Origin: a virus
Strand: one strand, 5' to 3'
IMG/VR virus record: IMGVR_UViG_3300030390_001550
Coordinates: 26,232-90,231 of that record
DNA: 64,000 nucleotides
Shown here: positions 26,213 to 64,000 of the stretch, piece after piece
Layout: the number at the start of each line of letters is the position of its first letter
Position numbering within the stretch: position 1 is the stretch's first letter
Position numbers and translations under genes: made by a program
Notes under the pieces: model-generated
What the model was told of the DNA's origin: nothing
Databases searched by the model: none
What the model saw: the letters and a program-made list of their open reading frames with translations, nothing else

Positions 26213-26246
26213 ATAAGAGTAAGAGAATCACTTGAAAGGTTTCATC

Positions 26247-33638: not shown

Positions 33639-33667
33639 TTGACACACACACAAAAATATGATATAAT
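33639..33667 (+). promoter_or_regulatory. Strong promoter of gp32
   Basis: Perfect TTGACA (33639-33644) and TATAAT (33662-33667) with 17-nt spacing. It fits the need for abundant gp32. Confidence 0.9.
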
Positions 33668-55900: not shown

Positions 55901-57331
55901 CAAGTTTCTATAAGTGCAGATGCTACTGTTGGAACAACATTTGAATTTGATGAACCAATTTATTTAAAAGGTAATACTGATTATGCTATAGTTTGTTTAA
56001 CAGATAATACTGATTATTTACTTTATACTTCAAAGGTTGGTGAGTTTGTTTTAGGTACTACAGAAGAAAAAATAAACAGACAACCATTTTTAGGATCACT
56101 ATTTAAATCGCAAAATAGCGTAACTTGGGAAGCAGCACAATGGGAAGATATGAAATTCAAATTGGAAAGAGCGTCTTTTGATACAACTGGCGGTATTGCT
56201 ACTCTCAAAAACGCTAATGTACCTGTAAGAGTTCTAAGTAATAATCCTATTACGTTGTTCGCAAAGGGCGCACCCACAACTGTTGTTGGTAAAACAACTA
56301 TTAAGGTAAATGCTCCACATCACGGATTAATTATTGGTGATAGTGTTGTAATATCAGGGGTGGTAGATGCAACATATGGTGTTGCTGTTAACAATGGTGG
56401 TACAGCACATACTGTAACAGAAATTGATGCTAGTAGTTTTGCGTTTGTCTCTGCTGCCTCTGCAATAACTACACCTGCTGGAACTGCGGCAAGCGGAACA
56501 CCGTTATCTCCAATTTTAACTGGTGGAGTTGCTGTAACTATAACACCACAATATTCTTACAATTTGGCTTGGCCTAATATTGAAACTTTATCGCCTATAA
56601 ATTCATCTATTAATTTTACAGAAAAAGGTATTAGTGGAAAATCTTATGCTGGTAGTGAATCTCCATATGTTCAATACTCAACAGCAACAGCACTTATACC
56701 AAAATATAATAACTATTATGCTTTCCCAAGATCAATAGCACATTCTACAAGAGAAGGTAGTATGGGCCACTCTTCACTTCTCGTTTATGGAACCATGACA
56801 ACTACTTCAAACTTTGTTTCGCCAGTAATTGATATGCAAAGAGCATCTGTTAATCTAATTGAAAATATTATTGATAGTCCAGTTTCACAAGCGACTAGTG
56901 GCGGTAGTAAGGTTGTTCTTGATGTTGCAACATCTGGATATGAAACATATATACCAGAAACTGATGCCCTAAACGGATCAGCATCTGCAAAACATATCAC
57001 GAAATCTGTAAGATTATTATCTCCTGCAAATGGATTGAAAGTTTTTGCTGGTATTAATAAACCATCTGTTTGTGAAGTTGAGTTGTATTATAAAGCACAA
57101 ATGGGTGACGTTGAGTTTGACAGTGTTCCTTGGAATTTAGCAACAGTAGATACTGCTATGCCAAGCGATGATGATAATATTACATTTAGGGAATATATTT
57201 ACACTATTGGTGGGGATACAGGCACAATGCCTGATTTTACTAAATTTAAATTAAAAATAGTAATGAAATCAACAAATTCTTCCAGAGTTCCAGCCATCCG
57301 CGATTTAAGAGCAATAAGTTTAGGTGATTGA
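52997..57331 (+). CDS. DUF4815-type large tail protein, main piece
   Basis: A 1444-aa protein, largest in the window. It begins I-K-L-R-V-S-P-G-K-A-Y-V-N-G-Y, a strand pattern that in relatives is internal to DUF4815 proteins. M-R-D-I-G-K-I-D-K-R-V-D-D-L-E-E-Q (about 492-508) and F-A-R-P-K-F follow. Later parts carry beta-rich adhesin-like domains with a D-P-L-A-Q-S-F-T-V motif near 911. Part of the baseplate periphery or fibres. It restarts in the TAATG overlap. Confidence 0.78.
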   Translation: MAKIKLRVSPGKAYVNGYKIQKNIPTFLSVSKATATETIINDSVGAAYGHYVIISVSGLKGIPNISELGVVHVKDSVDWGGNTVGSCRVRAIEKYDEIVDSSGVAVVAYKLYIFDLQMNSTKFFSTDAKSVGLTTSDYANIYQENSRSIIHGTNNKGLLFSTSNIRAKAVTNLSIYQQKKFAATLSAGSTTLTFTCASGEVFSDISDWIVSNGSGTIQSHSVTSGSLNSSSATINSLVATDTSIDETFTIIAYVYKASATLASKTKQTGTRNYTVAWTAGATNVSVDLNEVDIISVPEIRYGDETGDIITDKFILDNGQRDAFYETGKLRLKNGHSLDNTTIWVSFTYFEHGQGDYFAPNSYVGAGFTYDNIQTYTMENGSEVDLKDVIDMRPSKGQSGNNFTHSSARVPAIPKPTSLMTGDIEYYLPRYDKLIVQQSGEFKYIEGTPSFSPKFPDVPSNSMEIYRVRVNPFTLNSKDLTFSMIENKRYTMRDIGKIDKRVDDLEEQVTLSLLEVDTKNIQVLDENGNPRTKTGFVADNFSDQSHIDVKNQEYKGSIDPQEQFARPKFSANNIGLVYDDALSTRTTIVGDNIYLDYTHADYLEQSLASGTENVNPFMVIGFRGHVKMSPSSDDWKEVEYLADNMIDGGTRLNTDAAVLWNEWEWNWGGSDLNGLDVGSETTQTGVTGEQAFTDVSQFTTRSGAFGTSRRHWRRTTTGVERTNTTVVNRIIGSSTVNEVVGDRLVQWAFIPFMRSKMIFFRAAGLQPNTEMFAFFDQISVADWVKQESFNAYNSHKQTEYGNSQVNATSHPSGSSKLYSDGNGQVEGSFFIPSTDAIRFKTGSIEFKLTDITSVDDSKAITTASGIFISTGVLDTRQEDVESTRVLEVVGTTTERVDREVTGSNTVRIDPLAQSFTVNEETGVFITKATLYFKQKSSNMPVWIQMRPMVNGFPSSDVILPGSQKLLTSSQVSISADATVGTTFEFDEPIYLKGNTDYAIVCLTDNTDYLLYTSKVGEFVLGTTEEKINRQPFLGSLFKSQNSVTWEAAQWEDMKFKLERASFDTTGGIATLKNANVPVRVLSNNPITLFAKGAPTTVVGKTTIKVNAPHHGLIIGDSVVISGVVDATYGVAVNNGGTAHTVTEIDASSFAFVSAASAITTPAGTAASGTPLSPILTGGVAVTITPQYSYNLAWPNIETLSPINSSINFTEKGISGKSYAGSESPYVQYSTATALIPKYNNYYAFPRSIAHSTREGSMGHSSLLVYGTMTTTSNFVSPVIDMQRASVNLIENIIDSPVSQATSGGSKVVLDVATSGYETYIPETDALNGSASAKHITKSVRLLSPANGLKVFAGINKPSVCEVELYYKAQMGDVEFDSVPWNLATVDTAMPSDDDNITFREYIYTIGGDTGTMPDFTKFKLKIVMKSTNSSRVPAIRDLRAISLGD

Positions 57332-57332
57332 T

Positions 57333-57542
57333 ATGTTATTTTCTAAAATTCAAGGCGAAAAAAATTACGTTAAAGATTTAGAATCTGGTGCTATAATTAA
57401 TAGTGATTGCGTAGAAATTGAAAAAGCGAAGGTAAGAAAGAAAAAGATGCGAGAAGAAAAAGAAGAATTTCAAGTATTAAAATCAGAAGTGGCAGATATG
57501 AAAAATCTGCTTGTAGAAATTTCCAGAAAGTTAGGTGACTAA
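57333..57542 (+). CDS. Small coiled-coil tail-module protein
   Basis: A 69-aa protein; ATG at 57333 with AGGTGA upstream. It starts F-S-K-I-Q-G-E-K-N-Y-V-K-D-L-E-S-G-A-I, common after DUF4815 genes in marine T4-like phages, then Lys/Glu coiled coil. Stop and next start share one A. Confidence 0.68.
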   Translation: MLFSKIQGEKNYVKDLESGAIINSDCVEIEKAKVRKKKMREEKEEFQVLKSEVADMKNLLVEISRKLGD

Positions 57543-58744
57543 TGGCTAGATTAGAAAATGTTGATCTCAGTAATTCAGTAAATGCTTGGAGAATGAAAAC
57601 AAATCTTACCGCATCTTATGTTGGTGATTTGGATGATTTAAATACCACTGACAGTGGAAGTATTGTAGGTGCAGTAAATTCAATTCAAACTAAATTTGCT
57701 GTTAATGGTGAGGTGCAAGGATTAGCAAGAACTGCATTAGCATTATCAACTGGTGGGTCTGGTACATATTCAAGTTTATCTTATGTAGATTCAGCAGGAA
57801 TTGGTGGAGGGGTTTTCACGTTTACTTGTAATCCACTCACGGCAAGCGATATTCCTAATTTAGATGCTGGAAAACTAACAACTGGAACTATTAATCCATC
57901 ATTAATACCAGCAATAGATGCTGGGGTTATAACAACTGGAACATTAGCAACTGCGAGATTACCATATCTATCTGCAAATCAAACCACTGCTGGGCAATTT
58001 GATAGTGATCGTATCCCATCTTTACACGCTAATAAAATTAATAGGGGAACTTTTTTAATCGGAAGAATACCTGATATTCCTTCTAGTAAAGTAGTGAGTG
58101 ATGGTACTACAATACCATTAGAAGCAATGGACCCATCACTTGTAAGAAATAATCTTTCCACATCATACACTGGTACAAGAGTATATAATGGAACTAGCAC
58201 TTTTTACAATACGGTTACTGTTGGGACTTCTGCTCTTCCTGTTACATCAACATTTAATGGTCAAATAAATCACGCTGGGCATATTATTCCAGACACAGAT
58301 AACTCTTACAGTGTGGGTAGTTCATCATTTAAATACGCAAATATGTATGCGACAACATTTAATGGTAATGCTACGTCTGCTAATTTCGCTGACCTTGCGG
58401 AGAAATATACCACAGATGAAGATTATCCAATAGGAACTGTTATGATGGTTAATTTTGATACTAATGGTGAAACTACAAAATGCGGCAATTCTGGTATTCC
58501 AGTTGGGGTTATCTCAGCAGAACCAGCGTTTTTAATGAACGCTGAAGCAGAAGGACAAGCACTTGCTCTTAAAGGTAGGGTTCCTGTTAGAGTATGTGGT
58601 CAAATTAGAAAAGGTGAGGCTGTTTATACTTGGAAAAATGGGTGTGGTAGTACAGAATTTAATGGCGCACATATGATTGGAATATCACTTGAGACCAGTG
58701 ATATTGAAGATGAAAAAATGATTGAGTGTGTTCTTAAACTTTAA
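57542..58744 (+). CDS. Tail-fibre-like protein
   Basis: A 400-aa protein. The middle (about 100-185) has imperfect repeats of the type I-P-x-L-x-A-x-x-I-T-T-G-T, as in trimeric fibre shafts. Near 255-275 comes G-S-S-S-F-K-Y-A-N-M-Y, and the C-terminal domain D-L-A-E-K-Y-T-T-D ... G-V-I-S-A-E-P-A-F-L-M-N ... L-K-G-R-V-P-V-R-V is common in marine phage fibres. Likely host recognition. Confidence 0.78.
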   Translation: MARLENVDLSNSVNAWRMKTNLTASYVGDLDDLNTTDSGSIVGAVNSIQTKFAVNGEVQGLARTALALSTGGSGTYSSLSYVDSAGIGGGVFTFTCNPLTASDIPNLDAGKLTTGTINPSLIPAIDAGVITTGTLATARLPYLSANQTTAGQFDSDRIPSLHANKINRGTFLIGRIPDIPSSKVVSDGTTIPLEAMDPSLVRNNLSTSYTGTRVYNGTSTFYNTVTVGTSALPVTSTFNGQINHAGHIIPDTDNSYSVGSSSFKYANMYATTFNGNATSANFADLAEKYTTDEDYPIGTVMMVNFDTNGETTKCGNSGIPVGVISAEPAFLMNAEAEGQALALKGRVPVRVCGQIRKGEAVYTWKNGCGSTEFNGAHMIGISLETSDIEDEKMIECVLKL

Positions 58745-58752
58745 ATTGTCTA

Positions 58753-58781
58753 TTGACATTCTAAATTATAAGGTTTATAAT
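58753..58781 (+). promoter_or_regulatory. Strong host-type promoter of the radical-SAM cluster
   Basis: Perfect TTGACA (58753-58758) and TATAAT (58776-58781) with 17-nt spacing, 26 nt before the cupin gene. Unlike the late baseplate genes upstream, this unit is set for early or middle expression. Confidence 0.88.
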
Positions 58782-58807
58782 AACTTTAGTCATTAAAGGA
58801 TTTTGTT

Positions 58808-59326
58808 ATGATCACCAAAAGTCAATTCTTGAGTATAATCTCAAGTGATATTGCTTATGAGCAAAATATGGTCTATGCCATAGACGAAAATGGTAGAGAA
58901 CATCTCATGAAAAATTTTGCAGATACACTTGCAAATAAAGATACAAATTCAATAAAAATTGAAAGAATGGAAGCATACAACTCGGAAATTTTTTCCTATT
59001 GTTTAGAACTAGAAGATATGTATGAGCATAATGGCCCAATAACATGTCATTTATTTTATGCTGAAAAAAATGCTCATTCATTCAAAAAACATACTGATCC
59101 AGATAATGTTGTTATATATTGTTGTGAAGGTATGAAAACTATAGCAATGGAAGGTCATACTATGGGTGGTGAGCCAGTATTTACTTTGAAGGCAGGTGCA
59201 ATACTACATATTCCTGCGAATACTCTTCACCAAGCATTTAATGAACATGAGGCACTTACTTTGAGTTTTGGCTTAGAAAAATTTATAGAGGATAAAATGA
59301 ATAGTGTTTTGGTCAGTATACCTTAA
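58808..59326 (+). CDS. Cupin-fold protein
   Basis: A 172-aa protein with cupin motifs: F-K-K-H-T-D-P-D-N-V-V-I-Y (about 95-107, possible HxD) and I-P-A-N-T-L-H-Q-A (about 139-147, distal His). It could be a metal-dependent oxygenase or a scaffold. AAAGGA upstream. The last 23 nt overlap the radical-SAM gene, so the two are co-expressed. Confidence 0.7.
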   Translation: MITKSQFLSIISSDIAYEQNMVYAIDENGREHLMKNFADTLANKDTNSIKIERMEAYNSEIFSYCLELEDMYEHNGPITCHLFYAEKNAHSFKKHTDPDNVVIYCCEGMKTIAMEGHTMGGEPVFTLKAGAILHIPANTLHQAFNEHEALTLSFGLEKFIEDKMNSVLVSIP

Positions 59327-60323
59327 AACCACAGAAACTTGTCAATTAAACTGTAAGCACTGTTTTACTTCTGGTAGCAATGGTGCTAAAATTTATTGGA
59401 ATACTGATAAGATAGTTGATTGGATACATAGATTTCGTGAAGAAAAACCTGCAAAGGGTGATGGTATTCATTTAGAGTTTCATGGAGGCGAACCATTTCT
59501 TGTACCTGTAGGGCAAATGAGAAAGGTGTATGATGCTTGTGATGGTCTTTGGGATAATATGAGTTGGGGAGCCACAACCAATTTAGTGTATAAATTAAAA
59601 GATCAGCATAGAGAATTTATAAAAGGTCCACTTAGAAATAGGTTAGGAACTTCATGGGACCGTAAGATAAGATTTGATAATCAAAAACAATATAACTTGT
59701 GGCATAAAAACGTCAAGTCTCTTTTAGCAGATGGTGTAACTATACGTTTGTTTATTAGTCTTACTAAAGATACTTTAGAAAAAGACCCTATTGTATTATT
59801 AAGATGGTGTAGAAGATTGGGAGTTCAAGAGGTATCTTTAGAGAGATTGACCAATAATGGTTCAGCGCGTGAAGCATCAGAAATATTTCCATCAAATAAA
59901 GAGTTAGATGCTTATTTTTTGAAAATGCACCAGCAAAGTGAAGAATATGGAGCGCGAGATTGGTTTGAAAATGATTTTTTTGAAAATATATATGCTAAAT
60001 TTGAAAAAACTCTTACGACATGTGGTACTTTTTGTAGAGATTGCGAAACAAAACTATTCACGATAAATGGTGATGGTACAATAAGTGGTTGTCCAAATTC
60101 AGCACCAGAATTTCAGTTTGGAACTTTAGATGATCCCATTAAAACTCTTATAAATAGTCCTAGAAGAATAAGAACTATCATTGAAGAAAAAATGAGAAAC
60201 CCCAATTGTCTTTCTTGTCCTGTTGCGAAATATTGTGGTGGCGATTGTCATCAATTAGGATGGGAAGGTGATGTGTGTGGCGCACCTAAAAGTTTAATGA
60301 TGGAATTGGCAAAGAATGTCTAG
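59304..60323 (+). CDS. Radical-SAM/SPASM maturase-like enzyme
   Basis: A 339-aa protein, GTG start at 59304 with GAGGAT upstream. C13-x3-C17-x2-C20 (C-Q-L-N-C-K-H-C) binds the 4Fe-4S/SAM cluster; H-L-E-F-H-G-G-E-P-F carries the GGE motif. The C-terminal half has a SPASM-like set of cysteines (C-G-T-F-C-R-D-C, G-C-P-N, C-L-S-C-P-V-A-K-Y-C-G-G-D-C) for auxiliary clusters. The layout is that of anSME/RiPP maturases acting on peptide side chains. The CHSN-repeat protein follows 10 nt later and is the obvious candidate substrate. Confidence 0.9.
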   Translation: MFWSVYLKTTETCQLNCKHCFTSGSNGAKIYWNTDKIVDWIHRFREEKPAKGDGIHLEFHGGEPFLVPVGQMRKVYDACDGLWDNMSWGATTNLVYKLKDQHREFIKGPLRNRLGTSWDRKIRFDNQKQYNLWHKNVKSLLADGVTIRLFISLTKDTLEKDPIVLLRWCRRLGVQEVSLERLTNNGSAREASEIFPSNKELDAYFLKMHQQSEEYGARDWFENDFFENIYAKFEKTLTTCGTFCRDCETKLFTINGDGTISGCPNSAPEFQFGTLDDPIKTLINSPRRIRTIIEEKMRNPNCLSCPVAKYCGGDCHQLGWEGDVCGAPKSLMMELAKNV

Positions 60324-60333
60324 GAGATAAAGA

Positions 60334-61173
60334 ATGGCGATATCAGACCCTATTACAGAAAATCCTGTAATTACAAAATACAGACAGTTTGTGACTGATA
60401 AAATTAATAGTGCTATCGTGTTTGGTGATGATAATGTACCAGACGCATCTGTTGCCAGTTATTTTCATGGCACTAGAAGTGGTGTGACCACTAGTCCTGA
60501 TTTAATAGATGGGCCTATAACAGCATCAAATATTTTTGCTGTTCTATTGAAGGATGTTAACAAATATACTAGAATTAGAAAATTTAATGCTACAAGAACG
60601 GTAACAGGTATTCCAGGTGGCAACACACCAATCCCAACACGCAATAGTTCTTCTACTGCAAATGCAGATGCTGAAAAAAACTTTGCGTGTGAATGGCAAT
60701 CTGCTTTAGATGATGAAATTGCCTCGCGAAGTTTTAGGGGAAATACGCCCACATTTGGTGACCATATTTCAGCGTTCTTCACAAAATATAATACCTATGG
60801 AATTGGTGGAAAGCCTACTACAAAGCAAGAAGCAAGAGACCTACAACCTGCTGCTCAAAGTGCATGTGTTGCAGCAACTCAAAAATATGGCGTAAGTCTG
60901 AGAACTGGTGCTAAAATCAATACACCTTTAAATGTTAGTGGAGTCGGTATTCTAACAGCAAAACATAGTTTTTTTATTGATTCTAGTGATGTTGATCATT
61001 CAATGATTGTAGCAGGAGATTTAATTGATGATGCTGATATGGAGTCATTATTCAATAACCTATATCAAGCATGGAAAAGTGTTGCATTAGACGGTACGGT
61101 AACAGGATATAGCGAGTCTGTGTGTCATTCCAATTGCCACTCTAATTGTCACTCATCAAGGAATAGGAGATAA
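60334..61173 (+). CDS. CHSN-repeat protein, candidate radical-SAM substrate
   Basis: A 279-aa protein, start with AGGAGAT upstream. The bulk (1-260) is soluble with no known fold; near the end S-D-V-D-H-S-M-I-V-A-G-D-L-I-D-D-A-D and L-F-N-N-L-Y-Q-A-W resemble ends of marine phage structural proteins. The chain ends V-C-H-S-N-C-H-S-N-C-H-S-S-R-N-R-R: three period-4 C-H-S-(N/S) units and a basic tail. The units use different codons, so the repeat is kept at protein level. Cys and Ser are typical radical-SAM modification targets. Flanked by two radical-SAM genes. Confidence 0.75.
   Translation: MAISDPITENPVITKYRQFVTDKINSAIVFGDDNVPDASVASYFHGTRSGVTTSPDLIDGPITASNIFAVLLKDVNKYTRIRKFNATRTVTGIPGGNTPIPTRNSSSTANADAEKNFACEWQSALDDEIASRSFRGNTPTFGDHISAFFTKYNTYGIGGKPTTKQEARDLQPAAQSACVAATQKYGVSLRTGAKINTPLNVSGVGILTAKHSFFIDSSDVDHSMIVAGDLIDDADMESLFNNLYQAWKSVALDGTVTGYSESVCHSNCHSNCHSSRNRR
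61123..61158 (+). repeat. Coding repeat C-H-S-N x3
   Basis: Codons TGT CAT TCC AAT, TGC CAC TCT AAT, TGT CAC TCA TCA. The same four-residue unit is written each time with different third bases. Confidence 0.9.
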
Positions 61174-61180
61174 ATTTATT

Positions 61181-61834
61181 ATGGATAATTATGTTACAGT
61201 GACTGCCCCTCTAGGTATTGATGACTTGCAGAAATATTTTTCTGATGACAGCATTAATTTTATTATTGATTATGAAAATAGTGAGTTACAAGGTGAGAAA
61301 TTGCTTGTCTATTTAAGCAACTTAGAATTACCTTGTGATATTAAAGTTGAAAGAAATGATTTAGAAACCCTTGCAAAAATTTATCTCCAGTTTCCGCAAA
61401 TATTAAATATTAAAGTTTTAGAAGAATTTATTATTAAGGTTCTTTTGGTAAGAAAAAAACTATCTTTAGAATCTTTAGATTACTATCAAGATTTCATTGA
61501 TGATAATGAAGAAGTGATTGATACTTGGATTAAAAAGTTGGACTCATTGACACTTTATAATATGTATATTATCCAAGATGATGAAATGAAAGATTGGGTA
61601 CTATCCCATAAAGAAGATGATACTGATGATATAAAAGGTATAAATTTTGTATCTGTATTAAAACATGAAGATTTTTATTACTACTACAATGGTTTAGATG
61701 AAAAAAACTTGACCTATTATTCAAAATATTTTAATGAATATATGTTTAATGGGAAAGGTTTATTCGATTATTGGTCCTATGAAAAAAATCCAATTTTCCT
61801 ATTAACTTGGGGAGTTGGTGCAGGAGAAGTTTAA
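61181..61834 (+). CDS. Unknown protein of the radical-SAM cluster
   Basis: A 217-aa acidic, Leu/Tyr/Asp-rich protein, mostly helical. N-terminal V-T-A-P-L-G-I-D-D-L-Q-K-Y and C-terminal F-L-L-T-W-G-V-G-A-G-E-V. It sits between the CHSN-repeat gene and the second radical-SAM gene, directly adjacent to both. It could be a peptide-recognition or partner protein; I recognise no RRE-type wHTH by eye. Confidence 0.6.
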   Translation: MDNYVTVTAPLGIDDLQKYFSDDSINFIIDYENSELQGEKLLVYLSNLELPCDIKVERNDLETLAKIYLQFPQILNIKVLEEFIIKVLLVRKKLSLESLDYYQDFIDDNEEVIDTWIKKLDSLTLYNMYIIQDDEMKDWVLSHKEDDTDDIKGINFVSVLKHEDFYYYYNGLDEKNLTYYSKYFNEYMFNGKGLFDYWSYEKNPIFLLTWGVGAGEV

Positions 61835-62875
61835 TTGGATTTAGTAGATTTTATTTTAAGAGATAAAAGAGATAAGCAGCAAGAATACACAATTCATTTA
61901 TTTGAATTTTGTAATCTGTCTTGTCCATTTTGCTGGCAAGACCATGACAACATTGTGGGTATTGATACTGTATTGGACAAGTTGGAATCAATAGAAAAGT
62001 TTTTTCAAAAAGAGATGAGGAAACATGTAGTTTTAAACATCATGGGTGGTGAGATATTCGCTGATGAAATTTTTGATGAAAAATTGAAGAACGACTATAT
62101 TGCTCTTGCCCAAGGAATAGTAGACTTAGGAAAAAAATATAAGTTTGAGAGTATAGGAATTAATTGGGTCACTAACCTAGTAATTAGTAAAAGAGACTAT
62201 GTGCGAGATATATTGAAGGCGTGTAGAGATATGGGCTGTAACTCAAAACTCGTAACTTCATATGATCCTAGAGGTAGATTCAATAAACCAAACTTAGAAA
62301 TTTTCAAAGAAAATGTATATGATTTCTGGGATGATCTTGAAGGAATTGGTGTTCTTTTAACCAAGTCTAATATTAAATATTGGTTGACTGATCCTAAAGA
62401 TTTTATGCACGAATTATATCATAAGGGCGTAAAGGTTTATGCTGATTATTACATGCCTGATTGTCAAGCAGAACGAAGTATGCCAACAGACAAAGAACAT
62501 TATGATATTTTCACGCATTTTATAGATAAGTATCCTAAAATTGAGCCTATTCGTTCTTGGATAGAAAATGAGCGTAATGTTGTTTCATGCAGATCATCTA
62601 AATTAGTTCTTGAGGATGGAACCATGTGTTTGTGTGGAAATCTTGTTCAAGAGCCAAGAGATAAAGCGATGTACAAAACAGACATACAGAAGGCTAATAA
62701 CAAACCTATTGAAAAGGCTTTCCTTGAAAAGTATAATTGCTCTACTTGTGAATATTTTCATAGATGTACTCTTGGGTGTTTCATGGCACATGATTATAAA
62801 TATGCAGAAGAGGTTTTTGATGAATGTGTCTATAAAATGACACATAGATACATTGAAAATAAAGGATTAAGATGA
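61835..62875 (+). CDS. Second radical-SAM enzyme
   Basis: A 346-aa protein with TTG start at 61835 and AGGAG 8 nt upstream, directly after the previous stop. C26-x3-C30-x2-C33 (C-N-L-S-C-P-F-C) and V-L-N-I-M-G-G-E (about 69-76) mark a radical-SAM core. The C-terminus has Cys pairs (C-L-C-G-N, C-S-T-C-E-Y-F-H-R-C-T-L-G-C) like a SPASM/twitch auxiliary site. Different from the first enzyme, so a second kind of modification is likely. Confidence 0.88.
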   Translation: MDLVDFILRDKRDKQQEYTIHLFEFCNLSCPFCWQDHDNIVGIDTVLDKLESIEKFFQKEMRKHVVLNIMGGEIFADEIFDEKLKNDYIALAQGIVDLGKKYKFESIGINWVTNLVISKRDYVRDILKACRDMGCNSKLVTSYDPRGRFNKPNLEIFKENVYDFWDDLEGIGVLLTKSNIKYWLTDPKDFMHELYHKGVKVYADYYMPDCQAERSMPTDKEHYDIFTHFIDKYPKIEPIRSWIENERNVVSCRSSKLVLEDGTMCLCGNLVQEPRDKAMYKTDIQKANNKPIEKAFLEKYNCSTCEYFHRCTLGCFMAHDYKYAEEVFDECVYKMTHRYIENKGLR

Positions 62876-62876
62876 G

Positions 62877-63512
62877 ATGTTTTTTTATAAAAATGGCGAT
62901 AAATCTCCAATTAGCCAATCCTTTATAAATAGATTTCCAACAAGAAAAAGATTAACTAATCCAATTAAAGAAATTGATATAGAGTATAATGTATGCCATA
63001 CAGTATTTGATTATTTAGTTGATACTAAATTACCACCATGCATTCATTTTTTAGATAATTTTTTGAAAAGTGAAGTGTATGTGTTTAGTGTTCCACTATC
63101 AAGTAATTTATTATCTAAAGTTAATAGTAAATCTATGATGGAAGATTATACTACTCAATTTACTGGATCACCCAAAACAGTAGTAAATAATGATTATGAG
63201 TTAGGATGGATTGGCATAGAGAAAACTAAAAATTATACAATAATGTCAAATATTCAAATAAATGGAATTTATAGAGATTGCTTAACCAGAAGGCAAGAAA
63301 TAGATTTTTATAAAACTATGATCAAGTTTTGTAAAGGTGAAATATTGAATATGCCAATTTATGTGCCTACAGCCGAAACACTATACACACAAATGAAAAA
63401 AAATCCTGCACATCCTGATAGTGCTATAATGGAAACACCTTACACATCTAAGGTTTTAAAGGGGTTCACAAAGATACAATTTATGAACATGGAGTTTTAT
63501 AAAAATGATTAA
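62877..63512 (+). CDS. Unknown protein of the radical-SAM cluster
   Basis: A 211-aa protein 1 nt after the second radical-SAM gene (AAGGA upstream). Near the end comes Y-T-Q-M-K-K-N-P-A-H-P-D-S and T-P-Y-T-S-K-V. Alpha-beta composition, basic ends, no metal motif. It overlaps the third enzyme gene by 8 nt. Unknown role. Confidence 0.6.
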   Translation: MFFYKNGDKSPISQSFINRFPTRKRLTNPIKEIDIEYNVCHTVFDYLVDTKLPPCIHFLDNFLKSEVYVFSVPLSSNLLSKVNSKSMMEDYTTQFTGSPKTVVNNDYELGWIGIEKTKNYTIMSNIQINGIYRDCLTRRQEIDFYKTMIKFCKGEILNMPIYVPTAETLYTQMKKNPAHPDSAIMETPYTSKVLKGFTKIQFMNMEFYKND

Positions 63513-64000
63513 CGTAGGTTATGTGAATCCAACAGGAATACCCTCAAGAGCAGAATTTAACTATCATTGGATGCTTTTTAAATGTTTTTATGAAGATTAT
63601 GGAAAATATCCAGAAAAAGTTACTTGGGTGGAGCCAATATTCAAATGGAATGAAGTTACAATACAAGATTGTTTGGATAATGTTAAAGGGTGTTCCATTG
63701 TATTTTTTACCAACTATGTTTGGAATTATAAAATTAACCAAAGGATACGAAATGGTCTTGATCCAGATACCATAGTAGTTATGGGTGGTCCTCAACAAGA
63801 CCCTGATATAATAAAAGATTATGACTATGTTGCAGACCCTCTTGCTCCAGGAGAAATATTTGTACAATACTTTCTTGATATGTATCTAGAGGATTCTGTT
63901 GATAAGAAAAAGATTCCATTTTATTTGGGTAGTTCTTTAAAAATTCCTCTTCCATTTGGACATACGAATGTATATAAGAGATGTGAAGATTATTTTACCA
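63505..64000 (+). CDS. B12-binding radical-SAM-like protein (3' end outside window)
   Basis: Open from the ATG at 63505 to the right edge, 165 codons seen. It starts I-N-V-G-Y-V-N-P-T-G-I-P, has C-S-I-V-F-F-T-N-Y-V-W-N, and V-V-M-G-G-P-Q-Q-D-P-D with Y-D-Y-V-A-D-P, the outline of the N-terminal cobalamin-binding domain of B12-radical-SAM proteins (G-G-P-H-x-x-x-x-P). The CxxxCxxC motif would lie beyond the window. This would be a third radical-SAM enzyme of the cluster. Confidence 0.65.
   Translation, partial: MINVGYVNPTGIPSRAEFNYHWMLFKCFYEDYGKYPEKVTWVEPIFKWNEVTIQDCLDNVKGCSIVFFTNYVWNYKINQRIRNGLDPDTIVVMGGPQQDPDIIKDYDYVADPLAPGEIFVQYFLDMYLEDSVDKKKIPFYLGSSLKIPLPFGHTNVYKRCEDYFT

Follow-up and report, generated by a model that had tools for sequence, protein, structure and literature searches.

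In the CXXX-repeat or ranthipeptide systems (TIGR04115, PapA-PapB), a radical S-adenosylmethionine (radical-SAM) enzyme with a SPASM domain adjoins a substrate with Cys every four residues, and PapB joins Cys to the residue four positions on (PMC9413430). In the His-Xaa-Ser system (HxsA/B/C/D), a short C-terminal repeat with His and Ser adjoins paired radical-SAM enzymes. The anaerobic sulfatase-maturing enzymes (anSMEs) also have the SPASM architecture. Here we describe a locus that resembles each of these systems in part. It lies in IMG/VR virus record IMGVR_UViG_3300030390_001550, in a stretch of 64,000 nucleotides (positions 26,232 to 90,231 of that record; hereafter the window), which forms the right-hand part of a viral contig of 90,231 bp, so that the window end is the contig end. 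In this locus, a cluster of radical-SAM genes surrounds a third gene whose 279-aa product ends in a Cys-His repeat. We call this product, and its homologues with a C-terminal Cys-His tail, the CHX protein. We found that the tail and the radical-SAM genes are inherited together. Furthermore, we consider it likely that the CHX protein is a virion tail-tip protein or adhesin and that the surrounding radical-SAM and oxygenase enzymes modify its C-terminal tail in place, in the manner of a ribosomally synthesised and post-translationally modified peptide (RiPP) without leader removal.

The first radical-SAM/SPASM enzyme of the cluster (rSAM1) had NCBIfam matches to TIGR04083, PapB, DynA, anSME and the CXXX-repeat maturase, all of them weak. 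Its similarity to PapB was full-length and reached 41.6 bits (NF047865 cutoff 340), and that to the CXXX-repeat maturase TIGR04115 was an N-terminal match of 37.2 bits (cutoff 350). Like the CXXX and PapB substrates, the CHX protein has Cys every four residues; unlike them, it is a putative phage attachment protein of 120-370 aa with three C-terminal repeats and not a short precursor, and its clusters have four or more radical-SAM enzymes plus oxygenases. Compared with the His-Xaa-Ser system, the scores were 31.6 bits for HxsB (cutoff 370) and 31.7 bits for HxsC (cutoff 267.9), the repeat is C-H-x-S plus RxRR, and the partner genes are different. With the anSMEs the locus shares, besides the SPASM architecture, a Cys/Ser target in a C-x-x-x-R context in the last repeat. 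However, there is no sulfatase at the CHX clusters, there are three repeats and several more enzymes, and rSAM1 scored 37.7 bits against a cutoff of 349. Membership in the Hxs, PapB, CXXX, DynA and anSME families was rejected on these cutoffs. Judged by sequence, the system is filed as a putative radical-SAM peptide or protein maturation applied to a viral attachment protein, outside every described family.

The tail has the form C-H-x-(S/N) three times, then R-x-R-R and the stop. The initial annotation had described a CHSN repeat at the end of the protein. The C-terminal repeat is real, but CHSN is only one version of it. It had also suggested a search for proteins ending in C-H-S-x and for their neighbours, and such a search, made with DNA encoding CHxxCHxxCHxxRxRR-stop, found matches in at least 120 viral stretches and 19 genome stretches. 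The matches sit at the extreme end of an open frame except for three chance-like genome matches (L133, L134 and L140), which were rejected. The reversed control pattern had no match in 369 genomes. Thus, the tail is not a product of chance. Numerous uncultured marine phages carry it, as do a small number of jumbo phages and certain predatory bacteria. The fourth residue of the repeat is Ser (or Asn), which the search pattern did not impose, RGRR is the usual end, and every intact tail has Cys every four residues (C-H-x-S three times). In addition, 95 of 135 CHX bodies have no Cys outside the tail, and a six-frame scan of the window found CHxxCH nowhere except in the CHX tail. A literature search for the letters of the tail returned only noise.

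The association between the tail and the enzymes is strongly shown. An enzyme-first search, which used the rSAM1 alignment only and held no tail information, gave 80 loci. Six of these end at a contig edge; in the others the tail protein was the next gene (69) or one gene further (5), that is, in 74 of 74, and all 74 tail proteins have exactly three repeats with the stop directly after RR. A body-first search, made with the CHX alignment minus its last 17 residues, gave 72 loci. Three were cut, 66 had the tail, and all 66 had radical-SAM genes in their flanks. The remaining three had neither the tail nor any radical-SAM gene, and there were no mixed cases (one-sided Fisher 2e-5, which overstates independence because two of the three tail-less loci are near-identical). 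Among 218 tail loci, 211 carry a radical-SAM gene, and the other seven are short or cut near the CHX protein; frequent CHX proteins without radical-SAM genes, which would have spoken against the initial annotation, were thus not found. That annotation had also seen a RiPP-like maturation logic here. This logic is supported by the SPASM enzyme (rSAM1, with CxxxCxxC) and by a co-inherited candidate substrate with a conserved, modifiable Cys core (74/74; 66/66 and 0/3). No RiPP recognition domain was recognised in the cluster and, as far as visible, the tail is not a core peptide that is cut out from a leader.

The body of the CHX protein points to an adhesin. In the tail-less loci L317-L319, the body homologue has a length of 625-627 aa. 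Its body contains an inserted run of glycines, and the position at which the tail would start is taken by a Gly_rich_2 domain (in L317 it matches phrog_863, the T-even 'tail fiber assembly' or gp38-type family). Similar baseplate and fibre genes lie 5′ of it, and the next gene is a second fibre, with no enzyme cluster between. In L217, L218, L220 and L224 the body is split: one gene joins the N-domain to an adhesin domain of the Gly_rich_2 type, and a separate gene encodes the C-half with the tail. Thus, recognised adhesin domains (Gly_rich_2, phrog_863) occur in homologues of the body, and these swapped and split forms suggest that the body is a carrier for one of two ends, the CHx tail or a glycine-rich adhesin, the enzymes going with the tail. 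In T-even phages, too, the gene for the gp38-type tip protein comes right after the fibre gene. However, the CHX C-terminus is not a polyglycine domain but a short invariant peptide, apparently modified by enzymes.

The rates of change differ between the body and the enzymes. Between the window and the relatives L002-L004, the CHX protein had 56-77% identity and a ratio of nonsynonymous to synonymous change (dN/dS) of 0.22-0.37, and rSAM1 had 95-98% identity and a dN/dS of 0.03-0.04. The value was 0.02-0.04 for the second radical-SAM enzyme (rSAM2), and the fibre and a baseplate protein were intermediate between the CHX protein and the enzymes. Across 85 CHX proteins, the mean column identity was 14% and the tail alone was invariant, its C, H and R being selected by the search in most of them; the rSAM1 alignment had a mean column identity of 52%. 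This contrast is as expected if a protein in contact with the host changes fast while the target of its enzymes stays fixed. Furthermore, the AlphaFold2 model of the body was confident (pLDDT 85.8, pTM 0.84), and the tail had a pLDDT of about 53-63. Foldseek found nothing significant for the CHX model in PDB and only family members among viral models.

The features of the locus in the window are as follows.

57542..58744, + strand: tail fibre gene, immediately 5′ of the cluster (PHROG profiles phrog_22593, 5e-20, and phrog_19602 tail fibre, 5e-16)
58753..58781, + strand: perfect sigma-70-type promoter TTGACA-N17-TATAAT, the sole 12/12 match within 57000-64000
58808..59326, + strand: cupin, JmjC_2-like putative Fe(II) oxygenase (Pfam PF08007, 29.8 bits, cutoff 22; HxD...H triad)
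59304..60323, + strand: rSAM1, radical-SAM/SPASM enzyme (CQLNCKHC and complete 7-Cys SPASM pattern)
60334..61173, + strand: CHX protein, 279 aa, proposed substrate and tail-tip adhesin; its C-terminus is VCHSNCHSNCHSSRNRR, then stop
61123..61170, + strand: tail of the CHX protein at the extreme C-terminus, CHSNCHSNCHSSRNRR
61181..61834, + strand: PHROG-20767 protein, 217 aa, matching PHROG 20767; candidate substrate adaptor
61835..62875, + strand: rSAM2, with a SPASM-type C-terminus and a TTG start (CNLSCPFC and full SPASM pattern)
62877..63512, + strand: 211-aa cluster protein without a named family (open frame; profile searches)
63505..64000, + strand: N-terminal part of a B12-binding-type radical-SAM protein (555 aa in L002 and L004)

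All genes listed by the initial annotation, namely the cupin, two radical-SAM enzymes, the 279-aa protein, two unknown proteins and a B12-radical-SAM-like gene, were recovered at their positions. Its perfect promoter was also confirmed, and both hexamers and the 17-bp spacing are kept in L002, L003 and L004 although the spacer sequence differs. Two further perfect TTGACA/TATAAT promoters (spacing 15-19) lie in the window at 33639 and 45350 on the + strand. The HxD...H triad of the cupin is present in 150 of 150 relatives, and the full 7-Cys SPASM in 172 of 173 rSAM1 sequences (TIGR04085 in rSAM1, 34.8 bits, cutoff 27). For both rSAM1 and rSAM2 the Radical_SAM Pfam score was under its cutoff, and the match to PHROG 1802 was convincing (E 5e-61 and 3e-41). 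The 279-aa, 217-aa and 211-aa proteins had no named family in Pfam, NCBIfam and PHROG profile searches; a SdrG_C_C hint for the 211-aa protein was rejected (E 0.005, under cutoff). The AlphaFold2 model of the PHROG-20767 protein was confident (93.5), and Foldseek found nothing significant for it in PDB.

The B12-type gene is incomplete because the contig ends there. Its CxxxCxxC, which the initial annotation expected to appear on extending the contig, is found as CPFKCSYC at residue 191 in L002. In the IMG/VR relatives L002-L004, the part 3′ of the cut holds the B12-type radical-SAM gene, three 2-oxoglutarate-Fe(II)-type (2OG-Fe(II)) oxygenases, two more radical-SAM enzymes (rSAM3 and rSAM4) and a protein of about 148 aa, after which a second tail fibre was read in L002 and L003. 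Where at least 9 kb of downstream sequence was available (24 loci), rSAM2, rSAM3 and rSAM4 were always present, 23 loci had the PHROG-20767 protein and 22 had rSAM1; the two full clusters without rSAM1 begin at a locus edge. The oxygenases, the B12-type enzyme and a fifth radical-SAM type (rSAM5) are the variable members among these clusters. Meanwhile, a second group of loci (L010, L033, L042, L061, L073, L075, L092, L103 and others) has two short CHX proteins of about 125-140 aa in tandem, followed by several rSAM5-type enzymes, and in L051 and L075 the cupin-rSAM1 set stands further on.

The position of the cluster suggests a virion protein, as the initial annotation had guessed in proposing a virion adhesin as the modified target. 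The gene 5′ of the cupin encodes a tail-fibre type protein in 10 of 10 diverse loci, and the C-terminal domain of the window's fibre (PHROG 22593/19602; Peptidase_G2-like in some relatives) is common to fibres 5′ of the cluster in many other phages. Besides the gp38-like adhesin that replaces the tail, the guess gains support, though indirectly, from Agrobacterium phage Atu_ph07. Most of its virion proteins identified by electrospray ionisation tandem mass spectrometry (ESI-MS/MS) are in the clusters CDS 31-76, CDS 170-215 and CDS 284-329 (Attai et al. 2018, PMC6102473). In RefSeq, the CHX protein, rSAM1 and the cupin are gp170, gp171 and gp172, respectively, and the numbering of RefSeq and paper agrees at gp181/182 (baseplate), gp198 (portal), gp204, gp215 (major capsid) and gp227. 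Since the virion cluster CDS 170-215 opens exactly at gp170, gp170 was probably detected in virions. In Pseudomonas phage PA5oct, mass spectrometry (MS) confirmed as virion proteins both a fibre whose C-terminal domain is related and the product of the next gene. That phage has no radical-SAM gene and no CHx tail in the 24 kb read, and gp360, which takes the same place after a similar fibre, was rejected as a CHX homologue (profile comparison not significant). Campylobacter phage CP220 shares the fibre domain, yet has no CHxxCH in the 28 kb read; 11 radical-SAM genes are reported for it (PMC2853527). In pelagimyophages, radical-SAM cassettes lie beside fibres in the host-recognition island (PMC7029224).

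A mechanism can be proposed. The variable body would anchor to or cap the tail fibre and face the host. The operon would be transcribed from its own sigma-70-type promoter, whose sequence is seen and whose use we infer. Then rSAM1, probably with the PHROG-20767 protein as adaptor, would act on the Cys repeats. The most likely products are thioether-type cross-links in which Cys is joined to a residue close by in the same four-residue repeat, because rSAM1 appears to resemble PapB and the CXXX-repeat maturases; cross-links from Cys are also suggested by the four or more SPASM-ended radical-SAM enzymes that adjoin a Cys at every fourth residue. The four-position link of PapB fits the repeat, and the tail has no conserved Asp/Glu, so the acceptor would differ. 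The main alternative at this step is formylglycine formation, as by the anaerobic sulfatase maturases. Afterwards, rSAM2, rSAM3 and rSAM4 and, depending on the phage, the B12-type enzyme, the 2OG-Fe oxygenases and the JmjC-like cupin may add cross-links, methyl or hydroxyl groups: the cupin and the P4H-like enzymes suggest hydroxylation, and the B12-type enzyme suggests C-methylation. No protease, transporter or exporter was recognised among the cluster genes, so the tail is expected to stay on the protein. It would enter the virion in its finished form, as a tip for host binding that is rigid or chemically reactive.

Other explanations share part of this evidence. The CHx tail might simply bind metal (Fe/Zn) or haem at the tip of a trimeric fibre, with the radical-SAM enzymes acting on something else. 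Cys and His alternate in it, CxxxCH is a variant c-haem motif, and the tip of the T4 long tail fibre binds iron through histidines. Nevertheless, the tail and the radical-SAM genes are gained and lost together, profile searches recognised no haem lyase or metallochaperone in the cluster, and four radical-SAM enzymes would be superfluous for a metal site, which makes this explanation very unlikely. To a similarly small degree we credit the idea that the enzymes modify another virion or host molecule, such as the upstream fibre, for which the tail would be a recognition or docking handle only. One fibre C-terminal domain type does precede the cluster in 9 of 10 loci, hence the fibres are possible co-targets; but the same domain occurs without a radical-SAM gene in the stretch of PA5oct and without any nearby in L317-L319, the tail and not the fibre goes with the enzymes, and Bdellovibrionota keep tail and enzymes in their chromosomes. 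It is also highly improbable that the body serves as a long leader from which the tail is cleaved to diffuse away as a RiPP, acting as an antibacterial or in superinfection exclusion. A multi-enzyme radical-SAM cluster with a C-terminal Cys core does resemble RiPP gene clusters, but the lack of a recognised protease or exporter stands against release, the body changes like a receptor-binding protein and has adhesin domains in relatives, gp170 of Atu_ph07 lies within a virion cluster, and the tail-less relatives have an adhesin instead.

An anSME-like chemistry at the same substrate and place, in which Cys or Ser of the tail becomes formylglycine and the aldehydes possibly bind host amines covalently, is unlikely, although it has points in its favour. 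The only full-length PDB matches of rSAM1 are anSME structures (4k36 and 4k37), and the last repeat, C-H-G-S-R, is similar to C-x-P/A-x-R, the motif of sulfatases. However, TIGR04083, PapB and DynA score slightly above anSME, and repeats 1 and 2 have no Arg. Several points also weigh against in-place modification of a tail-tip protein itself. The role of the tail as a substrate, its modification, its chemistry and its receptor binding are inferred. All of rSAM1-4 are far under the cutoffs of every characterised maturase family, so the chemistry cannot be read off. Pfam and NCBIfam profile searches of the cluster proteins found no PqqD-type RiPP recognition domain; a RiPP recognition element is not required by all RiPP classes. 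In phages FLC6 and DT01 the upstream fibre-like proteins are different. The virion evidence from Atu_ph07 is indirect, a cluster boundary in the text of that study (PMC6102473). Moreover, the loci are mutually related, so the counts overstate independence, and the tail-less cases amount to about two lineages.

Earlier studies noted clusters of radical-SAM genes in jumbo phages and, for pelagimyophages, within the host-recognition islands (PMC8066314, PMC11898562, PMC7029224), and individual enzymes are annotated without a substrate in FLC6, S13, RP12/RP31 and pelagimyophages. Radical SAM does not figure in the main text of a comparative survey of jumbo phages from 2021. We found no report of a viral protein modification of this kind in a search that missed most subscription literature, so this absence is no proof. 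If the proposed modification is true, viruses finish a structural, host-contacting protein by radical-SAM peptide chemistry, and the puzzling clusters of jumbo phages and pelagimyophages gain a concrete substrate, a 16-residue target peptide. At least four uncharacterised radical-SAM families would then have a defined short substrate.

The tail was also found in 9 of 369 Bdellovibrionota genomes. Five 20-kb stretches (L241-L245) carry the CHX protein, the PHROG-20767 protein and several radical-SAM genes amid ordinary chromosomal genes, and in three of these five the neighbours are a small prepilin-like protein, with an S74 chaperone domain at its C-terminus, and a protein of about 200 aa ending in xVxGRHWVxV. 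The S74-bearing MAT fibres are prey adhesins of Bdellovibrio (PMC10769870). As phage-like S74 fibres for prey recognition, they recall the S74 proteins that adjoin these CHX clusters; unlike them, the latter are small and prepilin-like, and radical-SAM genes are not mentioned in that study. The shared tail would link attachment in phages and predatory bacteria. Tentatively, and with somewhat more doubt than belief, we suggest a tethered RiPP as an attachment device common to both, namely a heavily cross-linked, hydroxylated and sometimes C-methylated tail that remains part of the tip protein and makes contact with the bacterial surface itself, perhaps covalently. This would be virus-encoded natural-product chemistry built into the virion. 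On another bacterial contig (L139:3108-5406), a CHX tail gene has a prepilin-peptidase-like gene about 100 bp away and a type IV pilin-like gene in its vicinity, and no radical-SAM gene was seen within the 5.4-kb stretch.

Among named phages, tblastn of the window CHX protein and of an L010-type CHX protein gave no match, and the clusters in these phages were instead located with rSAM1 and the PHROG-20767 protein as queries. The jumbo phages Atu_ph07 (Agrobacterium), Phosso (Sinorhizobium), FLC6, FLC8 and SURPRISE13 (Burkholderia glumae) and SNUABM_DT01 (Pseudomonas) encode homologues of rSAM1 (39-51% identity), rSAM4 and the 217-aa protein. In the four that were read out, the gene order opens with the cupin, rSAM1 and the third protein, which ends in CHSSCHASCHNSRSRR, CHTSCHASCHSSRSRR, CHSSCHTSCHGSRGRR or CHTSCHTSCHSARGRR. 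In FLC6, the adjacent genes gp77 and gp78 (L008:20319-21532), which lie within the radical-SAM cluster, are annotated as dihydrofolate reductase. In Atu_ph07, gp164 (NC_042013 116015-116902) is annotated with 237 aa and without a radical-SAM motif; tblastn takes the rSAM4 homology upstream to nearly full length, and the annotated start is therefore probably too late.

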